Below are positions 4,222 through 13,758 of a stretch of DNA of 39,807 nucleotides, piece by piece. The stretch's first letter is position 1, and the number at the start of each line of letters is the position of its first letter. This stretch comes from Clavibacter tessellarius. GTDB taxonomy: Bacteria; Actinomycetota; Actinomycetes; Actinomycetales; Microbacteriaceae. The translations under genes were made by a program, and so were the position numbers. The notes beneath the pieces are model-generated. The model saw nothing but the letters and a program-made list of their open reading frames with translations, had not been told where the DNA came from and did no database searches. The stretch spans positions 1-39,807 of the forward strand of contig NZ_LQXA01000050.1 of the NCBI RefSeq assembly GCF_001618005.1. The letters are read 5' to 3'.

Positions 4222-5385
4222 CTACGGTCGGACGGCGGGGCCCCGGGACCGACGCGAGATGCGCGACCGGACGGCCTTCCGCGCGGGCTCCTCGACGAGG
4301 TGGTAGCACGCGGCCCCCACGGCGACCACGACGGCGTAGTGGCCGACCAGGATGGCCAGCTTGACGCCGGTGCCGGCATCCGCGAAACGCCCGACGGGGA
4401 GCAGCGCCCCCAGCACCATCAGCACGATGAAGTGGGTCATGTACACGGAGTAGGAGATCCGGCCTCCCCAGAGGAGCAGCCGCGAGCCGAGCAGCCGACC
4501 GACCGGACCCGTGGCGCCCGCGCAGGCGAGGACGAACAGGGCGATCACGGGCAGCGTCGACAGGGGCTGCGTGCCCTCGACCCCTATGGAGGCGAGTGCG
4601 ACGGCGAGCGCGAGGACGCTGACAGCGGCGGTCACGTCCCAGCCCCACCCGAAGCGGCGGTCGCCGAGCCAGCGCCAGCCGGCGAAGAGGCAGCAGCCCG
4701 CGGTGAACTCGAACGCGATCCGGAGCCAGATGAGCAGGAACGCGGAGGGCGAGTCGATGACCAGCGCCCCGGCGGCGAGCATCGCCGCGGCGCCCACCAC
4801 GACCAGGAGCGCCGCTGCCCCGAAGCCCGACGCTGCTGTGCGCAGCCGCACGAGTCCGATCGCGATGAGCGGGAACGCGAGGTAGGCCGCGAACTCCGCG
4901 GAGATCGACCACGCGGGGCCGTTCCAGGCCGAGAGGCCGAACACGGTCTGCGCGTTCAGGAGGTTGACGGCGAACGAGAGCGGCGTGTAGCCGCCGTCGG
5001 CGGAGAGGGCGACACCGAGGATGCGGGCTCCGAGGACCAGCGCGAGCATGGCGAGCAGCGTGAAGAGGTGCACGGGGTAGATGCGCGCGAACCGCAGCTC
5101 GAGGAAGGCACGGTAGCCGGACCAGGAGGGCGTCGCGAACCGGTCGGCGTAGTTGTAGGCGATGATGAAGCCGCTCAGGACGAAGAAGATCTCGACGCCG
5201 AGGAACCCGGAGCGGACCCAGGGGCCGATGACCTCCTGCGCGGAGGGGAACAACCCGTAGAGCACGAGCCGGAAGTGCTCCACGACCACCCACGCCGCCG
5301 CGAGGGCGCGGATCCCCGTCAGCCCGTCAGCTCCTGGCGGCGGGATGCGATGCCGGCGGTGCTCGTCATCAGTGCAGCCTTGCAC
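4222..5385 (-). CDS. Acyltransferase 3 family membrane protein (OafA/YrhL-like), 5' end disturbed by tandem duplication
   Basis: A polytopic membrane acyltransferase expected to O-acylate a cell-surface glycan. The N-terminal family signature LTGIRALAAAWVVVEHF opens the first helix, FFVLSGFIIAYNYADRF follows, and about ten hydrophobic segments run to a basic C-terminus. The intact frame extends upstream to a GTG at 5385 (387 aa), but that start lacks a good ribosome site and encodes an unconserved, His/Arg/Pro-rich leader. A better start is the ATG at 5369, preceded by AAGG at about 9 nt, but it runs out of frame after 16 codons (MTSTAGIASRRQELTG, then stop at 5321-5319). The two frames meet at an exact 8-bp tandem repeat (CCCGTCAG twice on the plus strand, 5315-5330). 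Removing one copy would join the ATG start to ELTGIRALAA and give a typical 379-aa protein. The gene may therefore be phase-variable, translated from the weaker GTG, or a recent frameshift mutant. Confidence 0.75.
   Translation of the reverse strand: MQGCTDDEHRRHRIPPPGADGLTGIRALAAAWVVVEHFRLVLYGLFPSAQEVIGPWVRSGFLGVEIFFVLSGFIIAYNYADRFATPSWSGYRAFLELRFARIYPVHLFTLLAMLALVLGARILGVALSADGGYTPLSFAVNLLNAQTVFGLSAWNGPAWSISAEFAAYLAFPLIAIGLVRLRTAASGFGAAALLVVVGAAAMLAAGALVIDSPSAFLLIWLRIAFEFTAGCCLFAGWRWLGDRRFGWGWDVTAAVSVLALAVALASIGVEGTQPLSTLPVIALFVLACAGATGPVGRLLGSRLLLWGGRISYSVYMTHFIVLMVLGALLPVGRFADAGTGVKLAILVGHYAVVVAVGAACYHLVEEPARKAVRSRISRRSRGPAVRP
5315..5331. repeat. 8-bp tandem duplication in the acyltransferase 5' end
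   Basis: CCCGTCAG occurs twice back to back (5315-5322 and 5323-5330), with one further matching base. Eight is not a multiple of three, so copy number decides which start codon is in frame with the acyltransferase body. Confidence 0.9.
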
Positions 5386-5534
5386 ACGGCCGCGCCCCGC
5401 GGACAGCGACGCGGATGGGTTCCGACGGAGACCACCCGGGCCGCCCCCACCCGCCCACCACTGAGACGACCACCTATCTCGACGCCGAGCGGCCACTGAG
5501 GTAGTACGCGATCCTTCCGCGCACGTATGGTTGA

Positions 5535-5557
5535 GGCACCCGCGGGGTTCGGGTGCC
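5535..5557 (+). promoter_or_regulatory. 5' leader hairpin upstream of the PP2C gene
   Basis: GGCACCCG (5535-5542) pairs perfectly with CGGGTGCC (5550-5557) around a 7-nt loop, 34 nt before the first gene of the five-gene operon. A TATGGT hexamer at 5526-5531, just upstream, could be the -10 element, which would put the hairpin at the 5' end of the mRNA. It may stabilise the transcript or be a protein-binding site; the role is not shown. Confidence 0.4.
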
Positions 5558-5591
5558 GTGGACGGGGGTCCATGACGGCGAAGGGGCGGGG

Positions 5592-6788
5592 ATGACTCTG
5601 ATCGAGGACGCGCGGGCACTCGCCGCGCAACGTGCCGTCGAGGCGCTCGGACTGCTCGACGGGCCGCCCGAGGAGCGGTTCGACCGTGTGACCCGGCTCG
5701 CCCGCACGGCGTTCGACGTGCCGCTGTCGACCATCGGGCTCGCCGACCACGACCGCATGTGGTTTGCCTCCTGTGCGGGCGCGGAGCTCTCCGAGACGCC
5801 CATCAGCACGGTCTTCTGCGACACCACCGTCCGGGAGGAGCGCCTGCTCGTCGTCGAGGACGCGCAGATGCATCCTGTCTTCCGCCACCTGCCGAGCGTG
5901 GCCGGGGAGCCGCACATCCGCTTCTACGCCGGGCATCCGCTGCGGGACACCGAGGGCGTGGTCGTCGGCACCTTCTGCCTCTACGACGTCCGGCCGCGCT
6001 CGCTCGACGGGGCGCAGCTCGCCCTCTTCGAGGAGCTCGCGGAGTGGGCGCAGCGCGAGCTGGTGGCGAGCGCCGAGATGGAGCGCGCGCACGCGGTCCA
6101 GTCCGCGCTGCTGCCCGCGGCCGAGGTGCAGCTGCCGGGATATGAGATCGCCGCCGTGTGCGTGCCCGCCCAGGTCGTCGGCGGCGACTTCTACGACTAC
6201 GAGCGCACCCCGTCGGGCCTGCGCTTCGCCATCGCGGACGTCATGGGCAAGGGCACGGGCGCGGCGATCCTCACGGCCACCGTGCGCGCCGTCCTCCGCG
6301 GGGTCGCCGCCACGGCCGACCGCTTCGGCGCCGGCGTGCTGGAGGACACGGGCCTCCTCGTCACGGACGCCGCGCGCTCCCTCGAGGCGGACCTCGAGCG
6401 CACGGGCGCGTTCGTCACCCTGCAGCACGGGCACCTCGACCAGGCCTCGGGCCTCCTCCGCTACGCGGACGCCGGGCACGGCCTCACGATCGTCGTGCAC
6501 CCGGGCGGCGGCGTGACGCACCTCGGCACGACCGACATGCCCGTCGGCATCATCCCCGACCACCAGTGGGAGGAGCGCCACGTCGTGCTCGCCCACGGCG
6601 ACACCTTCGTGACCTTCAGCGACGGCCTGTTCGACATGTTCGGCGGCAGCACCCCCGCCTTCGAGCTGATCGGGGCCCTCGTGCGCGAGTCGGGCGGGGT
6701 GCACGGGCTCGTGGAGCGCGTGCGGATCCTCGCCTCCGCCGGCACGCCCCTCGACGACGTGACGGTGCTCGCGGTGAAGCGCGCATGA
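5592..6788 (+). CDS. GAF domain-containing PP2C (SpoIIE-type) serine phosphatase
   Basis: A 398-residue cytosolic phosphatase of the RsbU/RsbP/SpoIIE class, which dephosphorylates phospho-STAS proteins in partner-switching systems. Residues about 21-155 are a GAF sensor domain (FDVPLSTIGLADHDRMWF early on, with a typical GHPLRDTEGVVVGTFCLYD end), followed by a helical linker and the PP2C domain from about 168. Metal-binding aspartates are visible: D199 in VGGDFYD, D216 in IADVMGKG, D344 in FSDGL and the DDVTVL end (D388/D389). The start is the ATG at 5592 with AAGGGG at 5581-5586; upstream in-frame starts lack such a site. The stop overlaps the glycosyltransferase start (ATGA). A phosphatase placed first in an operon that also contains STAS and HATPase genes is most simply the activating arm of a local switch. 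The GAF ligand is unknown. Confidence 0.92.
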   Translation: MTLIEDARALAAQRAVEALGLLDGPPEERFDRVTRLARTAFDVPLSTIGLADHDRMWFASCAGAELSETPISTVFCDTTVREERLLVVEDAQMHPVFRHLPSVAGEPHIRFYAGHPLRDTEGVVVGTFCLYDVRPRSLDGAQLALFEELAEWAQRELVASAEMERAHAVQSALLPAAEVQLPGYEIAAVCVPAQVVGGDFYDYERTPSGLRFAIADVMGKGTGAAILTATVRAVLRGVAATADRFGAGVLEDTGLLVTDAARSLEADLERTGAFVTLQHGHLDQASGLLRYADAGHGLTIVVHPGGGVTHLGTTDMPVGIIPDHQWEERHVVLAHGDTFVTFSDGLFDMFGGSTPAFELIGALVRESGGVHGLVERVRILASAGTPLDDVTVLAVKRA

Positions 6789-8791
6789 GCACCACGACGA
6801 CGACGACCGCGGCGCCGCGGCGTCCGCGCGCCCAGCGCATGACGGTCCGCTTCGCGATCGTGCGGATCCTCGCCGTGATCACCGCGATCCTCGGCCTCAA
6901 CTACATCATCTGGCGCCTGCTGTTCTCCGTGAACCCGGAGGCGCTCTGGATCGCGATCCCGCTCGTGATGGCCGAGACCTACAGCCTCATCGACTCGCTG
7001 CTGTTCGGCCTCACCATGTGGCGCGCCCGCGACCGCCCGAAGCCGCCCGTGCCCGGACCCGGCCTCACGGTCGACGTGTTCATCGCGACCTACAACGAGC
7101 CGCTCGACCTGGTGATGGAGACCGCGCGCGCCGCCCAGCGCATCCGCTACCCGCACAAGACGTGGGTGCTCGACGACGGCAACCGCACGGAGCTGCGCGA
7201 CCTGGCGGAGGCCGAGGGCATCGGCTGGATCACCCGCTCGGCCGACTGGTCGGGCCGGGCCCGGCACGCGAAGGCCGGCAACCTCAACAACGCGCTGCTC
7301 ACGACCGAGGGCGAGTTCATGCTCATCCTCGACGCCGACCAGGTGCCCGAGCCCGAGATCCTCGACCGCACCCTCGGCTACTTCGACGACCGGCGCATGG
7401 CGCTCGTGCAGACGCCGCAGGTGTTCGTGAACGTGCCCGACGCGGATCCGCTCGGCAGCCAGGCGCCCCTGTTCTACGGGCCCATCCAGCAGGGCAAGGA
7501 CGGCTGGAACGCCGCGTTCTTCTGCGGCTCCAACGCGATCCTCCGCCGCGAGGCCCTGATGCTGCTCGGCGTCTCCCGCTACGTGACCGACACCGAGATC
7601 AGCGTGTTCCGCGCGCTCCGCACCGCGAACGACGTGCTCGACAAGGCGCGCGCCGAGCTCGAGCCCGACCAGGTCGACCTCCGCAAGGCGCTCGACGACG
7701 TGACCTACGACGTGCGCCGCGCCCGCGCCGAGCTCCGCCGCGGCCAGCGCCTCGCGGACGTGACGTACCGCTTCCAGAAGCGCGTCGACTCGATCGCCGC
7801 GCGCATGGTGCAGGACGACATGTCGGCGCTCAAGGCCGACCTCGCGGAGATCGCCGCGCTCGCGGGCCGGCACTCCGCCGACCGCGACGCGGTGTCGCTC
7901 GTGGACGACAGCGCCATGACCCGCCTGGCCCAGCGCGACTGGTCGCCGCTCGGGGCGCTCGACGCGGTGCGCGCGATCATCCGCGACATCGACGTGCACC
8001 GGGACGACGACGCGCAGTCGATCATGCCGCTGGCCACCATCTCCGTCACCGAGGACATGGCCACCTGCATGCGCCTGCACGGCCTCGGCTGGAAGTCGGC
8101 GTACCACGACGAGGTCCTCGCCTACGGGCTCGCGCCGGAGGACCTGCCGACGATGCTCACGCAGCGCCTCCGCTGGGCGCAGGGCACGATCCAGGTCTTC
8201 TTCCGCGAGAACCCCCTGCTGCAGAAGGCGCTCTCGATCCCGCAGCGGCTCATGTACTTCGCCACCATGTGGAGCTACTTCTCCGGCTTCACCGCCCTCG
8301 TCTACGTGGCGGCGCCCATCATCTACCTGGTCTTCGGCGTGCTCCCCGTGCAGGCGCTCTCGACCGACTTCTTCTTCCGCCTGATCCCGTTCCTCCTCGT
8401 CAACCAGCTCCTGTTCGCGGTGGTCGGCCGCGGCAAGCGCACCTGGCGCGGGCAGCAGTACTCGCTCGCGCTCTTCCCGGTGTGGATCTCCTCGGTCACC
8501 ACCGCTGTCGCCAACGTCTTCTTCCGCAAGCCCCTCGACTTCGCCGTGACGCCCAAGGTGCGCGCCGAGAGCGGGAAGCCGCGCTGGGACCTGGTGAAGC
8601 CGCAGCTCTACGTGATCGGCGCGCTCATCGTCGCCTCGGCGATCGGCCTCCTCCGCCTCGCGGTCGGACAGGCGACGCCGCTCGGCACGTTCACCAACCT
8701 CGCCTGGGTCGTCTTCGACCTGGCGATCTTCAGCATCATCATCCGTGCGGCCCGCTACCGGGGCTTCACGCCGGCCAAGGAGGACGCATGA
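6785..8791 (+). CDS. BcsA-like processive family 2 glycosyltransferase with long helical insertion
   Basis: A 668-residue membrane glycosyltransferase resembling cellulose synthase BcsA and related beta-glycan synthases, expected to polymerise a sugar from a UDP-sugar and push the chain through the membrane. Two N-terminal helices (about 22-42 and 55-77) precede the GT-A domain. Substrate and catalytic motifs are intact: DDG 130-132, DAD 183-185, TED 422-424 and QRLRW 460-464. Further helices lie at about 488-520, 526-546, 561-580, 606-625 and 637-655. Between FCGSNAILRREAL (246-258) and TED there are about 160 residues where BcsA has roughly 20; this insert (about 262-415) is helical and charged, like a coiled coil. 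No PilZ domain or c-di-GMP motif is present. It overlaps its neighbours on both sides (ATGA each). The product sugar cannot be read from the sequence. Confidence 0.9.
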   Translation: MSTTTTTTAAPRRPRAQRMTVRFAIVRILAVITAILGLNYIIWRLLFSVNPEALWIAIPLVMAETYSLIDSLLFGLTMWRARDRPKPPVPGPGLTVDVFIATYNEPLDLVMETARAAQRIRYPHKTWVLDDGNRTELRDLAEAEGIGWITRSADWSGRARHAKAGNLNNALLTTEGEFMLILDADQVPEPEILDRTLGYFDDRRMALVQTPQVFVNVPDADPLGSQAPLFYGPIQQGKDGWNAAFFCGSNAILRREALMLLGVSRYVTDTEISVFRALRTANDVLDKARAELEPDQVDLRKALDDVTYDVRRARAELRRGQRLADVTYRFQKRVDSIAARMVQDDMSALKADLAEIAALAGRHSADRDAVSLVDDSAMTRLAQRDWSPLGALDAVRAIIRDIDVHRDDDAQSIMPLATISVTEDMATCMRLHGLGWKSAYHDEVLAYGLAPEDLPTMLTQRLRWAQGTIQVFFRENPLLQKALSIPQRLMYFATMWSYFSGFTALVYVAAPIIYLVFGVLPVQALSTDFFFRLIPFLLVNQLLFAVVGRGKRTWRGQQYSLALFPVWISSVTTAVANVFFRKPLDFAVTPKVRAESGKPRWDLVKPQLYVIGALIVASAIGLLRLAVGQATPLGTFTNLAWVVFDLAIFSIIIRAARYRGFTPAKEDA

Positions 8792-9126
8792 TCGACATCG
8801 CAGTGGCAGAGCAGGGCACGGAGGTCAGCGTCGTGACGCCGACCGGGCGCCTCAACATGGTGTCGGCCCGTCAGCTCACCACCGTCGTGACCGAGGTCAT
8901 CGACGGCGGGCGCCCCTTCGTGGTGGTCGATCTCGGCAGCACCGAGTTCATGGACTCCTCCGGTCTCGGCGCCCTCGTCTCGGGCCTCAAGCGCGCCCGG
9001 CAGGCGGGCGGCGACCTCCGGCTCGCGCGCCCGAACGCGCAGGTGCGGGCGGTGCTCGAGCTGACGAACCTCAACCGCGTCCTCACCGTGCACGACGCCC
9101 CCGAGGGCGTGTTCGGTGACCGGTGA
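8788..9126 (+). CDS. STAS domain anti-anti-sigma-factor-like protein
   Basis: A 112-residue single STAS domain of the SpoIIAA/RsbV type. The phospho-acceptor loop STEFMDSSGLGAL is intact; by analogy with SpoIIAA the modified residue is the second Ser of DSSGLG (S58), although S57 cannot be excluded. In such systems the protein binds an HATPase partner when unphosphorylated and is released when that partner phosphorylates it. Here the phosphatase (5592-6788) and the candidate kinase (next gene) share its operon. The start overlaps the glycosyltransferase stop (ATGA), with AAGGAGG at 8777-8783 as ribosome site. No sigma factor gene is seen nearby, so its target may be a non-sigma effector. Confidence 0.93.
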   Translation: MIDIAVAEQGTEVSVVTPTGRLNMVSARQLTTVVTEVIDGGRPFVVVDLGSTEFMDSSGLGALVSGLKRARQAGGDLRLARPNAQVRAVLELTNLNRVLTVHDAPEGVFGDR

Positions 9127-9574
9127 GGACATGGAGGGCATGACCCACCACGCGCCGCCGGTGCGCGCGAACGTCACGCTCCCCGCGGTGGACGAGAGCC
9201 TCGCGGCCGTGCACGCCGTGATCGCCGCGGTGTGGGACCAGGCCTTCGACGTGAGCGACGAGGAGCGGATGCTCTTCGAGACGGCCGTGGTCGAGATCGC
9301 GGGCAACGTGGTGGAGCACGGCGTCGCGGTGGGGCAGCGCGCGGGGTACCCCGTGACCTTCACGATGACCGTGGTCTGCCAGCACGACCGCATCGTGGCG
9401 CTGTTCGAGGACGACGGACAGCCGGCCGTCGTCGACCTCACGGAGGTGTCCATGCCCGACGACCTCAGCGAGAGCGGCCGCGGGCTGGCGCTCGCCCAGG
9501 CGATCCTCGACGACCTCACGTACGAGCGCACCGACGGCAGCAACCGCTGGCGGCTGGTCAGGCTCCGCGGCTGA
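9116..9574 (+). CDS. HATPase_c anti-sigma-factor-like serine kinase (RsbW/SpoIIAB-like)
   Basis: A 152-residue GHKL-type ATPase domain resembling RsbW/SpoIIAB. The N-box ETAVVEIAGNVVEHG is at 55-69 (Mg-binding N64), the G1-type DDGQP at 99-103 and the G2-type ESGRGLAL at 119-126, so the ATP site appears intact. In known systems this class phosphorylates the partner STAS protein and sequesters an output protein. The GTG start chosen has GAGGG at 9103-9107 with 8-nt spacing and overlaps the STAS gene by 11 nt; ATG codons at 9131 and 9140 are alternatives that would drop only a non-conserved leader. It ends in TGATG, coupling it to the next gene. No transmembrane segment is seen, so it should be cytosolic. 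Confidence 0.9.
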   Translation: MTGEDMEGMTHHAPPVRANVTLPAVDESLAAVHAVIAAVWDQAFDVSDEERMLFETAVVEIAGNVVEHGVAVGQRAGYPVTFTMTVVCQHDRIVALFEDDGQPAVVDLTEVSMPDDLSESGRGLALAQAILDDLTYERTDGSNRWRLVRLRG

Positions 9575-12195
9575 TGCGCGGCATCGGGAGACGGGACCGG
9601 GCGCGGTGGGGCGCACCCGCCCGGGGCGGGATCCGCCGCTGGGCCGCGGCCATGGTCGCGCTCGCGATCGCCGTCGTGCCCGCGACGGCGGCGCTCGCCG
9701 CGCCGCAGCCGACCGCGACGGCGCCCGCGGCGCCCGTGGACGAGGTCGACCTCACGCGCGGGCCGGCCGCGCCGTGGTTCGGCGGCATCATCGACTGGAC
9801 CGCGGACGACGCGCAGAGCTACGCCGATCGCCTGGGCGCCACCCCGGCCGTGCTCGGCCAGTCCGTGCGCTACCCCCTCGGATCCGACGACGTCACCTAC
9901 CTCGACCAGTTCGCCCAGCAGGCCGCGCAGCAGGGGTCGCTCCTCTTCCTCACCCTCGAGCCCACCGAGCCGCTCGCCGAGCTCACCGCCGCGGACGCCA
10001 CCGCCCTCACCGACCGGCTCGAGGCGCTCCGCGAGCGCTACGACTCCCGTGCGCTCGTGCGGTTCGCCCCCGAGATGAACGGCTCGTGGACCCCCTGGGG
10101 CCAGCAGCCGTCCGCGTACATATCCGCGTTCCGGCAGATCGCCGACGCCGTGCACGCCTCCGACGCGGGCGCCGTCACCGTGTGGTCGCCCGCCTACGCG
10201 GCCGGGTACCCGTTCGGATCCGCCGACGGGCTCACCGACTCCTCCGCCACCCGGCCCATCGCCGAGCTCGACACCGACGGCAACGGCCGCGTGGACGTCG
10301 ACGACGACGCCTACCGCCCCTACTGGCCGGGCGACGAGGCCGTCGACTGGGTCGGCCTGTCCGCCTCGCACTTCGGCTCCGAGCAGGACTTCTCCGTCGG
10401 GCAGCCGTCCCAGGAGTACCTCGGCAGCGAGGTCATCCCGCAGCAGGAGTTCGGGAAGAACGTGGTGCCCGAGGAGGGCAAGTTCGCGCGGGAGCTCGCG
10501 GGCGAGTACGGCTACGCCGACGAGGGCGGCACCGGGCGCGACTTCGCGGCCGAGTGGATCGAGGGCACGGGCAAGCCCGCCGTGATCGAGACCGGCGCGC
10601 TCTACGACCCCGCGCGCACCGACGGCGCGAGCGAGGCCGACGTCAAGCGCGGCTGGTGGGAGCAGGTGCTCTCCGCCGAGACGCGCGCCGACCACCCCGG
10701 CATCGGCATGGTCGTCTGGCGGGAGGTCGAGCGGAAGGAGGCGGAGGCCGACGACGCCGTCGTCGACTGGCGCGCCACGGGCGACGCGGACATCGCGTCC
10801 GCGCTCCGCGCCCACCTGGATCCGGCCACCGCGACCCTCGGTCCCGTCACGCAGGTCTTCGACCAGGAGCGCGCCAACGTCGCGACCGCGCAGTACCGCG
10901 ACCCCGGATCGCCCGAGGACGAGCAGATGGGCTGGATCGTGCTGTGCGCGGTCGTGCTCCTCCTCCTCTTCGTGATCTCCGGGCCGATCGGCCGCCTCAA
11001 GCCCGGCTGGCGCTACCCGGACGAGAACTCGCCCCGCGACCGCCGCCTCGACCTGTTCCGAGGCTGGACCATCGTGGCCGTGGTCATCACCCACATCGAG
11101 GTCGCGAGCCCCTACTCGTACGTGACGATCAACGCGATCGGCGCCATCACGGGCGCCGAGATGTTCGTGCTGCTCTCCGGCCTGGTGCTGGGCATGGTCT
11201 ACCCGATGGCGGTCAAGAAGTTCGGCGAGATGAAGGCGCTCGTCTCGATCCTGCGCCGCGCGTTCAAGCAGTACATCGTCGCGATCGCCGTGGTCGTCAT
11301 CGTCTTCGCTCTCACGTTCGTGCCGTTCCTCGCCACCGACGTGATCACCACCTTCACCGACCGCGGCACGGGCGCGGACGGCAAGGTCACCTCCGGCCAG
11401 GTCTACGACCTCTACCCGAACGGCGACCGGCTCCTCGACTACCCGCCGCCCTGGTACGCGATCCGCGACCTGCTGCTGCTGCGCATGGGCCCGTGGGTGT
11501 TCAACATCATGGGCCTGTTCGTGGTGCTGACCCTGCTCGTCCCGGGGATCGTGTGGCTGCTCCGCCGCCGCATGTGGTGGGTCGTCCTCATCGCCAGCTG
11601 GACCGCGTACGTGCTCAACGCGCAGTTCGACATCCGCGTGCTGCCGTCGATGTTCGAGGATGTCTTCCCCCTGCTCACCTGGCAGGTCGCGTTCCTGAAC
11701 GGCATGGTGATCGGCTACTACCGCCGTCAGATCACGCGCGCGCTCACGGGACGGCTGGGCCGCGTCCTCGTGTCGATCCTCGTGGTCGCGTACGTGGGCG
11801 CCCTCGCGGTGCTCTGGGCCGGGCACACCTACGGGGTCGCGATCCCGGGCGTCCCCGACGGCCTCTACTCGTCGCTGTACGAGTCGATGTACCAGCGCAC
11901 GTTCCTGCAGCCGGGCCGCCTCATCGACCTCGGGCTGATGCTCGTGGTGGCGTACACGTTCCTCACGCGGGTGTGGAAGCCGGTCGACCGCGCGTTCGGC
12001 TGGTTCTACACGCCGCTCGGATCCGCGAGCCTCTACGTGTTCATCGTCCACGTGTTCTTCGTGCTGATCGTCGGCAGCCTGCCGTTCCTCGACAGGTCGA
12101 ATCCCTGGCAGGGGGCGGTGGTCCACACGCTCGTGCTCGCGGCGATCTGGTTCATGGTCACGCGCAAGGTGCTCTTCAAGGTCATCCCCACCTGA
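9574..12195 (+). CDS. Secreted GH26-like glycoside hydrolase fused to OpgC-like membrane acyltransferase
   Basis: An 873-residue two-part protein. Residues 1-43 are a signal peptide or signal anchor (RRWAAAMVALAIAVVPATAALAA region). Residues about 65-415 resemble a GH26-type (clan GH-A) hydrolase: RFAPEMNGSW at 163-172 carries the likely acid/base E167, WPGDEAVDWVGL (251-262) is a typical GH26 block, and IETGA near E339 is the candidate nucleophile. Inside it, DTDGNGRVDVDD (233-244) looks like a calcium-binding EF-hand/dockerin-type loop. A helix at about 453-472 leads to an OpgC-like acyltransferase (about 485-873) with LDLFRGWTIVAVVITH, many membrane helices and a C-terminal FIVHVFFVLIVG segment. 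OpgC proteins succinylate osmoregulated periplasmic glucans. As the last gene of the operon it could trim and acylate the polymer made by the BcsA-like enzyme, which is inference. The start overlaps the HATPase stop by 1 nt. Confidence 0.88.
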   Translation: MRGIGRRDRARWGAPARGGIRRWAAAMVALAIAVVPATAALAAPQPTATAPAAPVDEVDLTRGPAAPWFGGIIDWTADDAQSYADRLGATPAVLGQSVRYPLGSDDVTYLDQFAQQAAQQGSLLFLTLEPTEPLAELTAADATALTDRLEALRERYDSRALVRFAPEMNGSWTPWGQQPSAYISAFRQIADAVHASDAGAVTVWSPAYAAGYPFGSADGLTDSSATRPIAELDTDGNGRVDVDDDAYRPYWPGDEAVDWVGLSASHFGSEQDFSVGQPSQEYLGSEVIPQQEFGKNVVPEEGKFARELAGEYGYADEGGTGRDFAAEWIEGTGKPAVIETGALYDPARTDGASEADVKRGWWEQVLSAETRADHPGIGMVVWREVERKEAEADDAVVDWRATGDADIASALRAHLDPATATLGPVTQVFDQERANVATAQYRDPGSPEDEQMGWIVLCAVVLLLLFVISGPIGRLKPGWRYPDENSPRDRRLDLFRGWTIVAVVITHIEVASPYSYVTINAIGAITGAEMFVLLSGLVLGMVYPMAVKKFGEMKALVSILRRAFKQYIVAIAVVVIVFALTFVPFLATDVITTFTDRGTGADGKVTSGQVYDLYPNGDRLLDYPPPWYAIRDLLLLRMGPWVFNIMGLFVVLTLLVPGIVWLLRRRMWWVVLIASWTAYVLNAQFDIRVLPSMFEDVFPLLTWQVAFLNGMVIGYYRRQITRALTGRLGRVLVSILVVAYVGALAVLWAGHTYGVAIPGVPDGLYSSLYESMYQRTFLQPGRLIDLGLMLVVAYTFLTRVWKPVDRAFGWFYTPLGSASLYVFIVHVFFVLIVGSLPFLDRSNPWQGAVVHTLVLAAIWFMVTRKVLFKVIPT

Positions 12196-12198
12196 TCG

Positions 12199-12232
12199 GC
12201 GCGGGTCGGAGCCGCACGGAGCCGACCCGCGC
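12199..12232 (+). terminator. Terminator of the five-gene operon
   Basis: A perfect 11-bp stem (12199-12209 with 12222-12232, core GCGGGTCGG/CCGACCCGC) with a 12-nt loop starts 4 bases after the last stop codon of the operon. It also faces the oncoming APC permease gene. Confidence 0.7.
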
Positions 12233-12318
12233 TCCGCACCCCTTCCCGGACGTCCATCACCCAGGTCATCGGCACGAGCGGGCAGCCGCCGCTGGACCGC
12301 CGCGGGCGTCGCCGGCCG

Positions 12319-13758
12319 TCAGCGCCGGTTGCGCGGGCTGTCCGGCGCGAGCACCGAGTTGCGCCGGGAGTAGGTGAGGTAGATCACGAGCCCGATGACG
12401 AGCCACACCGCGAACCGCACCCACGTCTCCCACGGCAGCGACGAGACGAGCCAGAGCGAGAAGCCGATGCCGATGATCGGCACCACCGGCATGAGCGGCA
12501 GCCGGAACGTCCGCGGGATCTCCGGCCGCCTGTAGCGGAGCACGATCACGGCCGCGCACACCACCACGAACGCCAGCAGGATCCCGATGTTCGTGAGCTC
12601 CGCCACCACGGTGATGGGCAGGAAGCCCGCGAACAGGGCCGAGCCGATGCCGATGATCCACGTCACGCGCGTGGGCACGTTCCGCTTCCGGTCGGTGACG
12701 GCGAACCACTTCGGCAGCAGCCCGTCGCGGCTCATGGAGAACCACACGCGGCTGGCGCCGAGCATGAAGGTGAGCATCACGGTGACGACGCTGACGATCG
12801 CGCCGACCGCCACCACGTTCGCGACCGCGGGCAGCCCCACCGACTCGAACGCCGTCGCGAAGCCGCTCTTCGGGTCGATCTCGCTGTACTTCTGCATGCC
12901 CGTCAGCACGATCGTCGCCAGCACGTAGAGCGCCATCGCGATGCCGAGCGACAGCAGGATCGCCTTCGGCATGTGCTTGGTGGCGTCCTTCGACTCCTCG
13001 GCCGCGGTGCTCATGGCGTCGTAGCCGAAGACCGCGAAGAACACGGTGGCGGCGCCGGTGAAGACGCCGGCCGCGCCGAAGGGGAAGTACGGCTGGTAGT
13101 TCGCGCCGGTGATCTGCGTGAAGCCGATGACCACGATCACCAGCACGAGCGCGACCTTGAGGCCCACGAGGTACAGCTCGAAGCGGCCGACGCTCTTCAT
13201 GCCGCGCGTGAGCACGAACGCGGTGCCGAGGCAGAGCACCACGGCGAACAGGTCGACCACGTGGCCCTCGCCCGTGCCGGCGGCGCCGAGCATCCAGGCC
13301 GGGAGGTCGACGCCCACGTGGTCGAGCAGGAAGCCCGCGTACCCCGATACGCCGATGGCGACCACCCCCACGATGGCGGTGTACTCGAGCAGCAGGTCCC
13401 AGCCGATGAACCAGCCGACGATCTCGCCGAGGGCCGCGTAGCCGTACGTGTAGGCGGAGCCGGCCCGCGGGATCATGCCCGCGAACTCCGCGTACGAGAG
13501 CGCGGCCGCGGCGCTCGCGATGCCGGCGATGAGGAACGAGATGAGGACGGCGGGGCCCGCGGTCTGGTTGGCGACCGTGCCCGCGAGCGTGAAGATGCCC
13601 GTGCCGATGATGCCGCCCACGCCGATGGCCGTCAGCTGCCACAGGCCGAGCGAGCGGGTGAGGCCGCCCTCCTCGCCGGCGCCGGGCTCGGCCTCGATGG
13701 CCTCCACCGGCTTCCGTCTCGTCAGGGCCGTCCAGAACGACGTGCTCGCTGCGCTCAT
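12319..13758 (-). CDS. APC family amino acid permease
   Basis: A 479-residue polytopic transporter of the amino acid-polyamine-organocation superfamily, most like the YhdG/cationic amino acid transporter group. The start ATG at 13758 has AGGAGCG just upstream. An N-terminal cytosolic stretch leads to LTAIGVGGIIGTGIFTLAG, the conserved unwound first helix whose GxGI(I)GTGIF residues bind the amino acid backbone. FAGMIPRAGSAYTYGYAALGE follows, the conserved block between helices 2 and 3. About 12 membrane segments are visible, and the protein ends in a short basic tail. The substrate cannot be told; cationic amino acids would be a guess. It converges with the exopolysaccharide operon and shows no obvious functional link with it. 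Confidence 0.9.
   Translation of the reverse strand: MSAASTSFWTALTRRKPVEAIEAEPGAGEEGGLTRSLGLWQLTAIGVGGIIGTGIFTLAGTVANQTAGPAVLISFLIAGIASAAAALSYAEFAGMIPRAGSAYTYGYAALGEIVGWFIGWDLLLEYTAIVGVVAIGVSGYAGFLLDHVGVDLPAWMLGAAGTGEGHVVDLFAVVLCLGTAFVLTRGMKSVGRFELYLVGLKVALVLVIVVIGFTQITGANYQPYFPFGAAGVFTGAATVFFAVFGYDAMSTAAEESKDATKHMPKAILLSLGIAMALYVLATIVLTGMQKYSEIDPKSGFATAFESVGLPAVANVVAVGAIVSVVTVMLTFMLGASRVWFSMSRDGLLPKWFAVTDRKRNVPTRVTWIIGIGSALFAGFLPITVVAELTNIGILLAFVVVCAAVIVLRYRRPEIPRTFRLPLMPVVPIIGIGFSLWLVSSLPWETWVRFAVWLVIGLVIYLTYSRRNSVLAPDSPRNRR

Follow-up and report, generated by a model that had tools for sequence, protein, structure and literature searches.

Many actinobacteria appear to switch a cellulose-synthase-like enzyme on and off by way of a small phosphoprotein partner from its own operon

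A five-gene operon in Clavibacter tessellarius

The DNA analysed (the window) was a stretch of 39,807 nucleotides from Clavibacter tessellarius, contig 50 of a 3.3 Mb genome. Five plus-strand genes, all overlapping, span positions 5592-12195 and encode, in order, a GAF-PP2C phosphatase, a BcsA-like family 2 glycosyltransferase (GT2) synthase, a STAS protein, a HATPase kinase and a GH26-OpgC membrane protein (gene 5). Phosphatase and synthase genes meet in ATGA at 6785-6788, synthase and STAS genes in ATGA at 8788-8791, STAS and kinase genes in an overlap of 11 nucleotides, GTGACCGGTGA, at 9116-9126, and kinase gene and gene 5 in TGATG at 9572-9576. The 11-nucleotide overlap requires that the kinase start at GTG 9116; in-frame ATG codons at 9131 and 9140 are alternatives. 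An earlier note on this DNA, made from the letters alone, had described the five overlapping genes with these junctions, which were found in the sequence, and had assigned GAF-PP2C, BcsA-like glycosyltransferase, STAS (with DSSGLG) and HATPase domains, which Pfam confirmed. A consensus promoter and terminator scan of the GC-rich operon stretch found none. The features on which the analysis turns are as follows.

5592-6788, plus strand: GAF-PP2C phosphatase of the SpoIIE type, putatively removing the phosphate from the STAS protein (Pfam SpoIIE 7.2e-30, GAF 2.1e-15)
6785-8791, plus strand: BcsA-like GT2 polysaccharide synthase without PilZ (Pfam Cellulose_synt/GT2, TIGR03030, phmmer, Foldseek)
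7571-8026, plus strand: helical insertion of roughly 150 residues (about 263-414) between the FFCGS and TED motifs of the synthase, a candidate regulatory or docking element
8788-9126, plus strand: anti-anti-sigma-like STAS protein, which may be in direct contact with the synthase (TIGR00377 8.2e-21, above cut-off; conserved beside the synthase)
8956-8958, plus strand: Ser57, the first Ser in DSSGLG, where phosphorylation is predicted (Ser in 129/129 main-clade STAS proteins)
9116-9574, plus strand: RsbW-like serine kinase (HATPase_c_2), putative kinase of the STAS protein (Pfam 7.7e-13)

The synthase has the GT2 core, the TED and QxxRW motifs and the membrane helices of the BcsA type. It matched the CelA model TIGR03030 at E 2.4e-102 with 343 bits, below the curated equivalog cut-off of 699 bits. 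Filing it as BcsA proper was rejected on that score and on the lack of PilZ, and it is called BcsA-like here. Aligned to E. coli BcsA with phmmer, it matched in two stretches (residues 17-262 and 415-650), the insertion forming the unaligned gap. In an AlphaFold2 model the insertion, a feature absent from the earlier note, was mainly helical (helices at 255-290, 297-318, 323-342, 349-361, 375-383 and 388-402). A Foldseek comparison of the model with 9b8v_E gave 4.8e-25; searches with the whole chain matched BcsA, CesA and related synthases and were uninformative for the insertion.

The three switch proteins together make up an Rsb-type set (PP2C, STAS and HATPase with key motifs), the G1 stretch of the kinase being loose. 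By analogy with SpoIIAA/RsbV, the first Ser of DSSGLG would be the phosphorylated residue of the STAS protein. The earlier note had read all three boxes as intact: the N-box Glu and Asn and the G2 Gly-Arg-Gly stand, but G1 is DDGQP, looser than DxGxG. Among 115 aligned kinase homologues (duplicates included), the N-box Glu was present in 113 and the Asn in 114, and the three G2 residues in 114, 113 and 114.

Conservation of the operon and of the synthase insertion

Named loci are the best 80 kept from one scan of genome contigs. PP2C, glycosyltransferase, STAS and HATPase genes were close and co-oriented in 60 of them, from genera that include Nocardioides, Aeromicrobium, Arthrobacter, Pseudarthrobacter, Rhodococcus, Williamsia, Gordonia, Geodermatophilus and Clavibacter. 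The arrangement is not a chance one, because these core four genes recur in distant genera. Glycosyltransferase, STAS and HATPase genes were in place in a further 7 loci, the STAS-HATPase pair lay on the opposite strand in 3, and none was adjacent in 10. A search of the order across relatives, which the earlier note had proposed as a check on all five genes, upheld the first four and left gene 5 outside the core (OpgC match in 34/80 named loci). Nine of the genomes with the ten switch-less loci were searchable, and in all nine the kinase gene lay at another site. In eight it belonged to a PP2C-STAS-HATPase trio whose 1.5-kb flanks gave no synthase match, and in one it adjoined a further copy of the synthase. 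Counting the window genome, the synthase was patchy, being found in 36/199 genomes of the family, 24/396 of the order and 23/394 of the class; in the phylum it was found in 17/396 at a looser threshold, 15 of these by N-terminal match only. Synthase identity between the window and same-genus genomes (Clavibacter loci) was 93-96%.

Distances were counted for 170 distinct synthases, distinctness being judged on part of the synthase sequence; several named loci and genomes may be the same strain. In each of the 110 synthases of the initial collection FFCGS and TED were 166-193 residues apart, and in insertion-less relatives 24-26. Among 143 distinct long-insertion synthases (78 of these rows being named loci), STAS lay within 8 kb in 129, HATPase in 128 and both in 126. 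All three switch genes were near 116, STAS and HATPase near 10, STAS only near 3, HATPase only near 2, PP2C only near 1 and none near 11; absence was judged at E 0.01 with profiles made from the genes of these operons, and the 'PP2C only' state belongs to L192, on a 3.3 kb contig, where it is uninformative. The earlier note would have counted it against direct control if the regulatory genes were missing beside most orthologous synthases; the 126/143 figure is the opposite. Three entries lacking both motifs were dropped (L204, a 245-residue piece; a second weak glycosyltransferase-like open reading frame (ORF) in L248; and L147), and L147 was counted afterwards as insertion-less on its continuous Pfam match and PilZ. 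Some records call for a comment of their own. A stop codon lies within the range of the synthase match in L107 (10001-11965) and in the match at G026:C1:3000135-3002102; these may be true breaks, alignment end effects or sequencing errors. L086, titled Kitasatospora arboriphila, has insertion-start residues identical to those of Williamsia loci, and the record is possibly mislabelled or contaminated.

The order and strand of the PP2C gene varied among loci, and so did its sensor. PP2C lay within 2.5 kb of 113 long-insertion synthases, with GAF in 80 and without it in 33; ten of the 33 were scanned, giving a receiver domain in 5, PAS and/or MASE1 in 3 and no named sensor in 2. The phosphatase sensor has been swapped between lineages, GAF being replaced by a receiver (L085, L101, L104, L175, L177) or by PAS and/or MASE1 (L165, below cut-offs for this assignment; L219, L232). 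PP2C motif patterns, the loosest of which is too narrow for judging, were uneven among relatives (111, 104, 97 and 40 of 113). L166 (6856-8709) and L167 (6464-8116) each have a single frame with GAF, PP2C and HATPase matches, next to which lies an additional STAS gene; such a frame apparently joins phosphatase and kinase in one protein, as in SypE.

PilZ, the domain through which cyclic di-GMP (c-di-GMP) control would act, was found in none of 57 long-insertion synthases scanned (that of the window plus 56 belonging to the 80 named loci). It was found in 13/16 insertion-less synthases, 12 over cut-off; STAS, HATPase or PP2C genes were found near none of these 16, five of which (L145, L146, L154, L155, L156) have less than 3 kb on one side. 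PilZ on the one hand and insertion with switch on the other are mutually exclusive in this sample. GGDEF gave no match in the window genome in a search that was positive in 8/14 control genomes. In a core tree (FastTree, 166 rows, long branches flagged), absent, short and long insertion states each formed one clade, with support of 99 for short and 95 for long and two state changes in all.

How the switch may act on the synthase

The short-insertion clade comprises nine synthases with an FFCGS-TED spacing of 134-142. No kinase or phosphatase gene was found near any of them in up to 8 kb on each side (L224 covers only 0.2 kb upstream). STAS was retained in 9/9, over the Pfam cut-off in each, as a gene just downstream in 7 and as a glycosyltransferase-STAS fusion in 2 (L160, L161). 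The first Ser of DSSGLG was Ala in 5 and Pro in 4 of these proteins; it was Ser in all 129 of the main clade. PilZ was found in 0/6 of the nine synthases scanned. Three genomes, G1013, G1124 and G1237 (L212/L213, L217/L218, L229/L230), hold both a long-insertion synthase with its switch and a short-insertion synthase with a Ser-less STAS, and are natural internal controls.

We put at about 0.7 the probability that the partner switch acts on the synthase protein itself, not on transcription, with the STAS protein as a direct regulatory subunit. The fusions and the pattern of co-loss make STAS the likely contact. The earlier note had suggested that the switch may act on the synthase directly, and synteny and the fusions support this; what changes is the contact, likely STAS and maybe made through the insertion that had gone unnoticed. 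In the usual logic of these families, as in RsbV/RsbW, the STAS protein sequesters the kinase, and on that logic the HATPase would contact the synthase as an inhibitor, or phosphorylate it, until STAS drew it away. L172 and L173, which have a kinase and no STAS near the synthase, fit such an arrangement, and the divergence of the insertion tracks the kinase as well as STAS. Were the kinase the partner, however, STAS would be lost first, and the nine short-insertion loci, which keep or fuse STAS and in which no kinase was found, are the reverse of that prediction. Contact through the HATPase is accordingly judged quite unlikely.

The same protein families serve as anti-sigma factors and their antagonists, and an anti-sigma circuit in trans has to be weighed. 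In it, the HATPase would bind a SigB/F/G-type sigma factor encoded elsewhere, and the synthase would be no more than a co-transcribed gene or a member of the regulon. The window genome has eight sigma70 region 2 matches. One SigF-type gene (G000:C16:9019-9684; L140 about 5930-7240, minus strand) has no RsbW or anti-sigma gene beside it, which would permit control in trans in this genome. A second, synthase-free STAS-HATPase-PP2C-PP2C module lies in the same genome at G000:C30:95311-98764 (L141); it is a candidate regulator of the orphan SigF-like factor, for which it would be an equally good partner. Among the 36 family genomes with the synthase, a SigB/F/G match of at least 190 bits was found in 13 and a weaker one, of about 84-110 bits (an ambiguous tier), in others. 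Four genomes with synthase, STAS, kinase and phosphatase (G074, G115, G122 (93% complete) and G137) gave no SigB/F/G match beyond the roughly 130 bits of SigA, the primary sigma level. The window operon holds no cognate SigB/F/G gene; here the earlier note was right that neither PilZ nor a sigma factor is present. It had also held that sigma factors regularly included in homologous operons would argue against direct control. Sigma-like ORFs occurred in 9/143 long-insertion loci, and in L211 alone did one follow the switch: an ORF of the extracytoplasmic function (ECF) type at 11659-12822, directly behind the kinase gene and in the same orientation, the only such case within 5 kb. Inclusion of a sigma factor is therefore not regular. 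RsbW-like kinases do not usually pair with ECF factors. A circuit in trans would also leave the fusion of STAS to the synthase unexplained, and we regard it as unlikely.

Gene 5 and its parts are these.

9574-12195, plus strand: 873-residue membrane protein, accessory, combining a GH26-like domain with a membrane domain of the OpgC type, acyltransferase-like
about 9769-10818, plus strand: GH26-like domain, presumed extracytoplasmic (phmmer, profile, fold)
about 11035-12162, plus strand: OpgC-type membrane domain (Pfam OpgC_C 2.1e-51)

The N-terminal half gave no Pfam match at E 0.01. It matched endoglucanase H with phmmer (E 3.5e-5) and a six-sequence GH26 profile (E 2.1e-9), and its best fold match was the CtLic26 lichenase. 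At E up to 0.1, Pfam GH26 was matched by 6/6 members, the window's own value of 0.041 being below cut-off. The GH26-like/OpgC-like fusion of the earlier note is thereby recovered, the first part by phmmer, profile and fold and the second by Pfam. Trimming and acylation of the product, which it had added, are possibilities drawn from these two assignments, gene 5 lying outside the conserved core. Likeness of the domain to CtLic26 is only a hint as to the product of the neighbouring synthase. A divergent acyltransferase-3 ORF upstream (4222-5619, minus strand) was considered as a sixth operon member and rejected; its sole match at E 1e-10 among 177 loci was weak (46.5 bits, L033).

The switch might instead control some other local process (gene 5, an accessory enzyme or localisation of the complex), its tie to the synthase being one of shared use only, and the synthase-free switch elsewhere in the window genome would suit this. 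But the switch is conserved where gene 5 is not, and the partner to which STAS is fused is the synthase itself; we consider this very unlikely.

Gene content, synteny, motif states, the fusions, the distribution of PilZ and the lack of a GGDEF match are observed. That STAS binds the synthase, that the two meet at the insertion, which way regulation runs and what polymer is made are inferred, in the following steps. The HATPase would phosphorylate STAS on Ser57, and PP2C, driven by GAF (or by receiver or PAS domains in some relatives), would strip the phosphate. Unphosphorylated STAS would then bind the synthase, the likeliest place being the helical insertion beside the active site or its surroundings, and binding would permit or activate polymerisation of a beta-linked glucan-type polysaccharide. 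The unphosphorylated form is taken as permissive or activating because an inhibitory STAS would leave permanently silent enzymes in the kinase-less lineages. Insertion and switch would together substitute for the PilZ/c-di-GMP control of most of the insertion-less relatives examined. In the sister clade the switch would be frozen, a STAS protein that cannot be phosphorylated at this site staying beside or fused to the synthase. That one branch of cellulose-synthase-like enzymes swapped PilZ and c-di-GMP for an insertion-docked, c-di-GMP-independent STAS subunit, and that its sister branch froze a non-phosphorylatable one, is a broader proposition on which we would lay even odds.

Several observations weigh against direct control by STAS, among them the SigF-like gene without an adjacent RsbW and the ECF-type ORF of L211. 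Eleven of the 143 long-insertion synthases (the ten named exceptions and L223) have no nearby switch gene, 3/143 have STAS without a nearby kinase, and 2/143, L172 and L173, the kinase without STAS. Taken together, the insertion, the loss of PilZ and the switch represent roughly a single evolutionary contrast, long kept, and not many independent ones; Fisher values treat related genomes as independent, overstate the evidence and are descriptive only. In partial Mantel tests, descriptive only since relatedness is ignored (made on the 110 loci where the four genes all lie near, thinned to 91), divergence of the insertion tracked STAS at r 0.35, HATPase at 0.34 and PP2C at 0.29, so that STAS is not singled out, and STAS also tracked the C-terminal core of the synthase (0.29). 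The synthase model is of moderate quality (predicted local distance difference test, pLDDT, 78; predicted template modelling score, pTM, 0.75). The argument for activation rather than inhibition draws on a single pattern, that of STAS retention in kinase-less lineages.

Known systems and significance

Among the nearest mechanistic precedents is SiaABCD of Pseudomonas aeruginosa, in which the SiaA phosphatase and SiaB kinase set the state of SiaC, and unphosphorylated SiaC directly binds and activates SiaD (PMC8457831). As proposed here, a phosphatase and a kinase set a STAS-like protein whose unphosphorylated form drives an enzyme. SiaD, the target there, is a diguanylate cyclase whose effect is exerted via c-di-GMP, and SiaC is a DUF1987 protein, whereas here the target would be the synthase, in a genome without a GGDEF match. 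HsbA/HsbD and BgrV/BgrR, named in the same source, likewise place an enzyme, again a diguanylate cyclase, under the control of a STAS protein; they differ in enzyme class and genomic setting. In Vibrio fischeri, unphosphorylated SypA is the active form, a Ser-to-Ala form complements, and the downstream partner was then unidentified (available part of PMC4517449). There too a kinase- and phosphatase-controlled STAS protein governs a polysaccharide locus; SypE, though, combines both activities in one response regulator, and that part of the paper describes no STAS-synthase fusion. In all4160 of Anabaena a glycosyltransferase has an N-terminal STAS (PMC8256260), so that STAS is fused to a glycosyltransferase as in L160 and L161 but at the other end. 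BcsA with PilZ (4p00, 9b8v) shares with the window synthase the GT2 core, the TED and QxxRW motifs and the membrane fold; the window synthase differs in having no PilZ, a large FxCGS-TED insertion and, as proposed, a STAS partner instead of c-di-GMP.

The earlier note knew of no characterised system with this layout. No published description of the operon was found in the open-access literature, the scope of the search (subscription papers and preprints lie outside it), which agrees with the note; mechanistic precedents do exist in SiaABCD, HsbA/HsbD, BgrV/BgrR and SypE/SypA. The available portions of the SiaABCD, SypE/SypA and all4160 sources describe no BcsA-like synthase that has an insertion in its catalytic domain and is coupled to a STAS switch. 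A refined tree in PMC6821405 excluded sequences with insertions of more than 10 residues.

Most known partner-switch proteins regulate sigma factors, and a few act on diguanylate cyclases. The conserved operon and the two STAS-synthase fusions make direct STAS gating of a polysaccharide synthase a testable proposition. If true, it would be a second, c-di-GMP-independent route of control for cellulose-synthase-family enzymes, and an example of an enzyme family exchanging one allosteric input for another.

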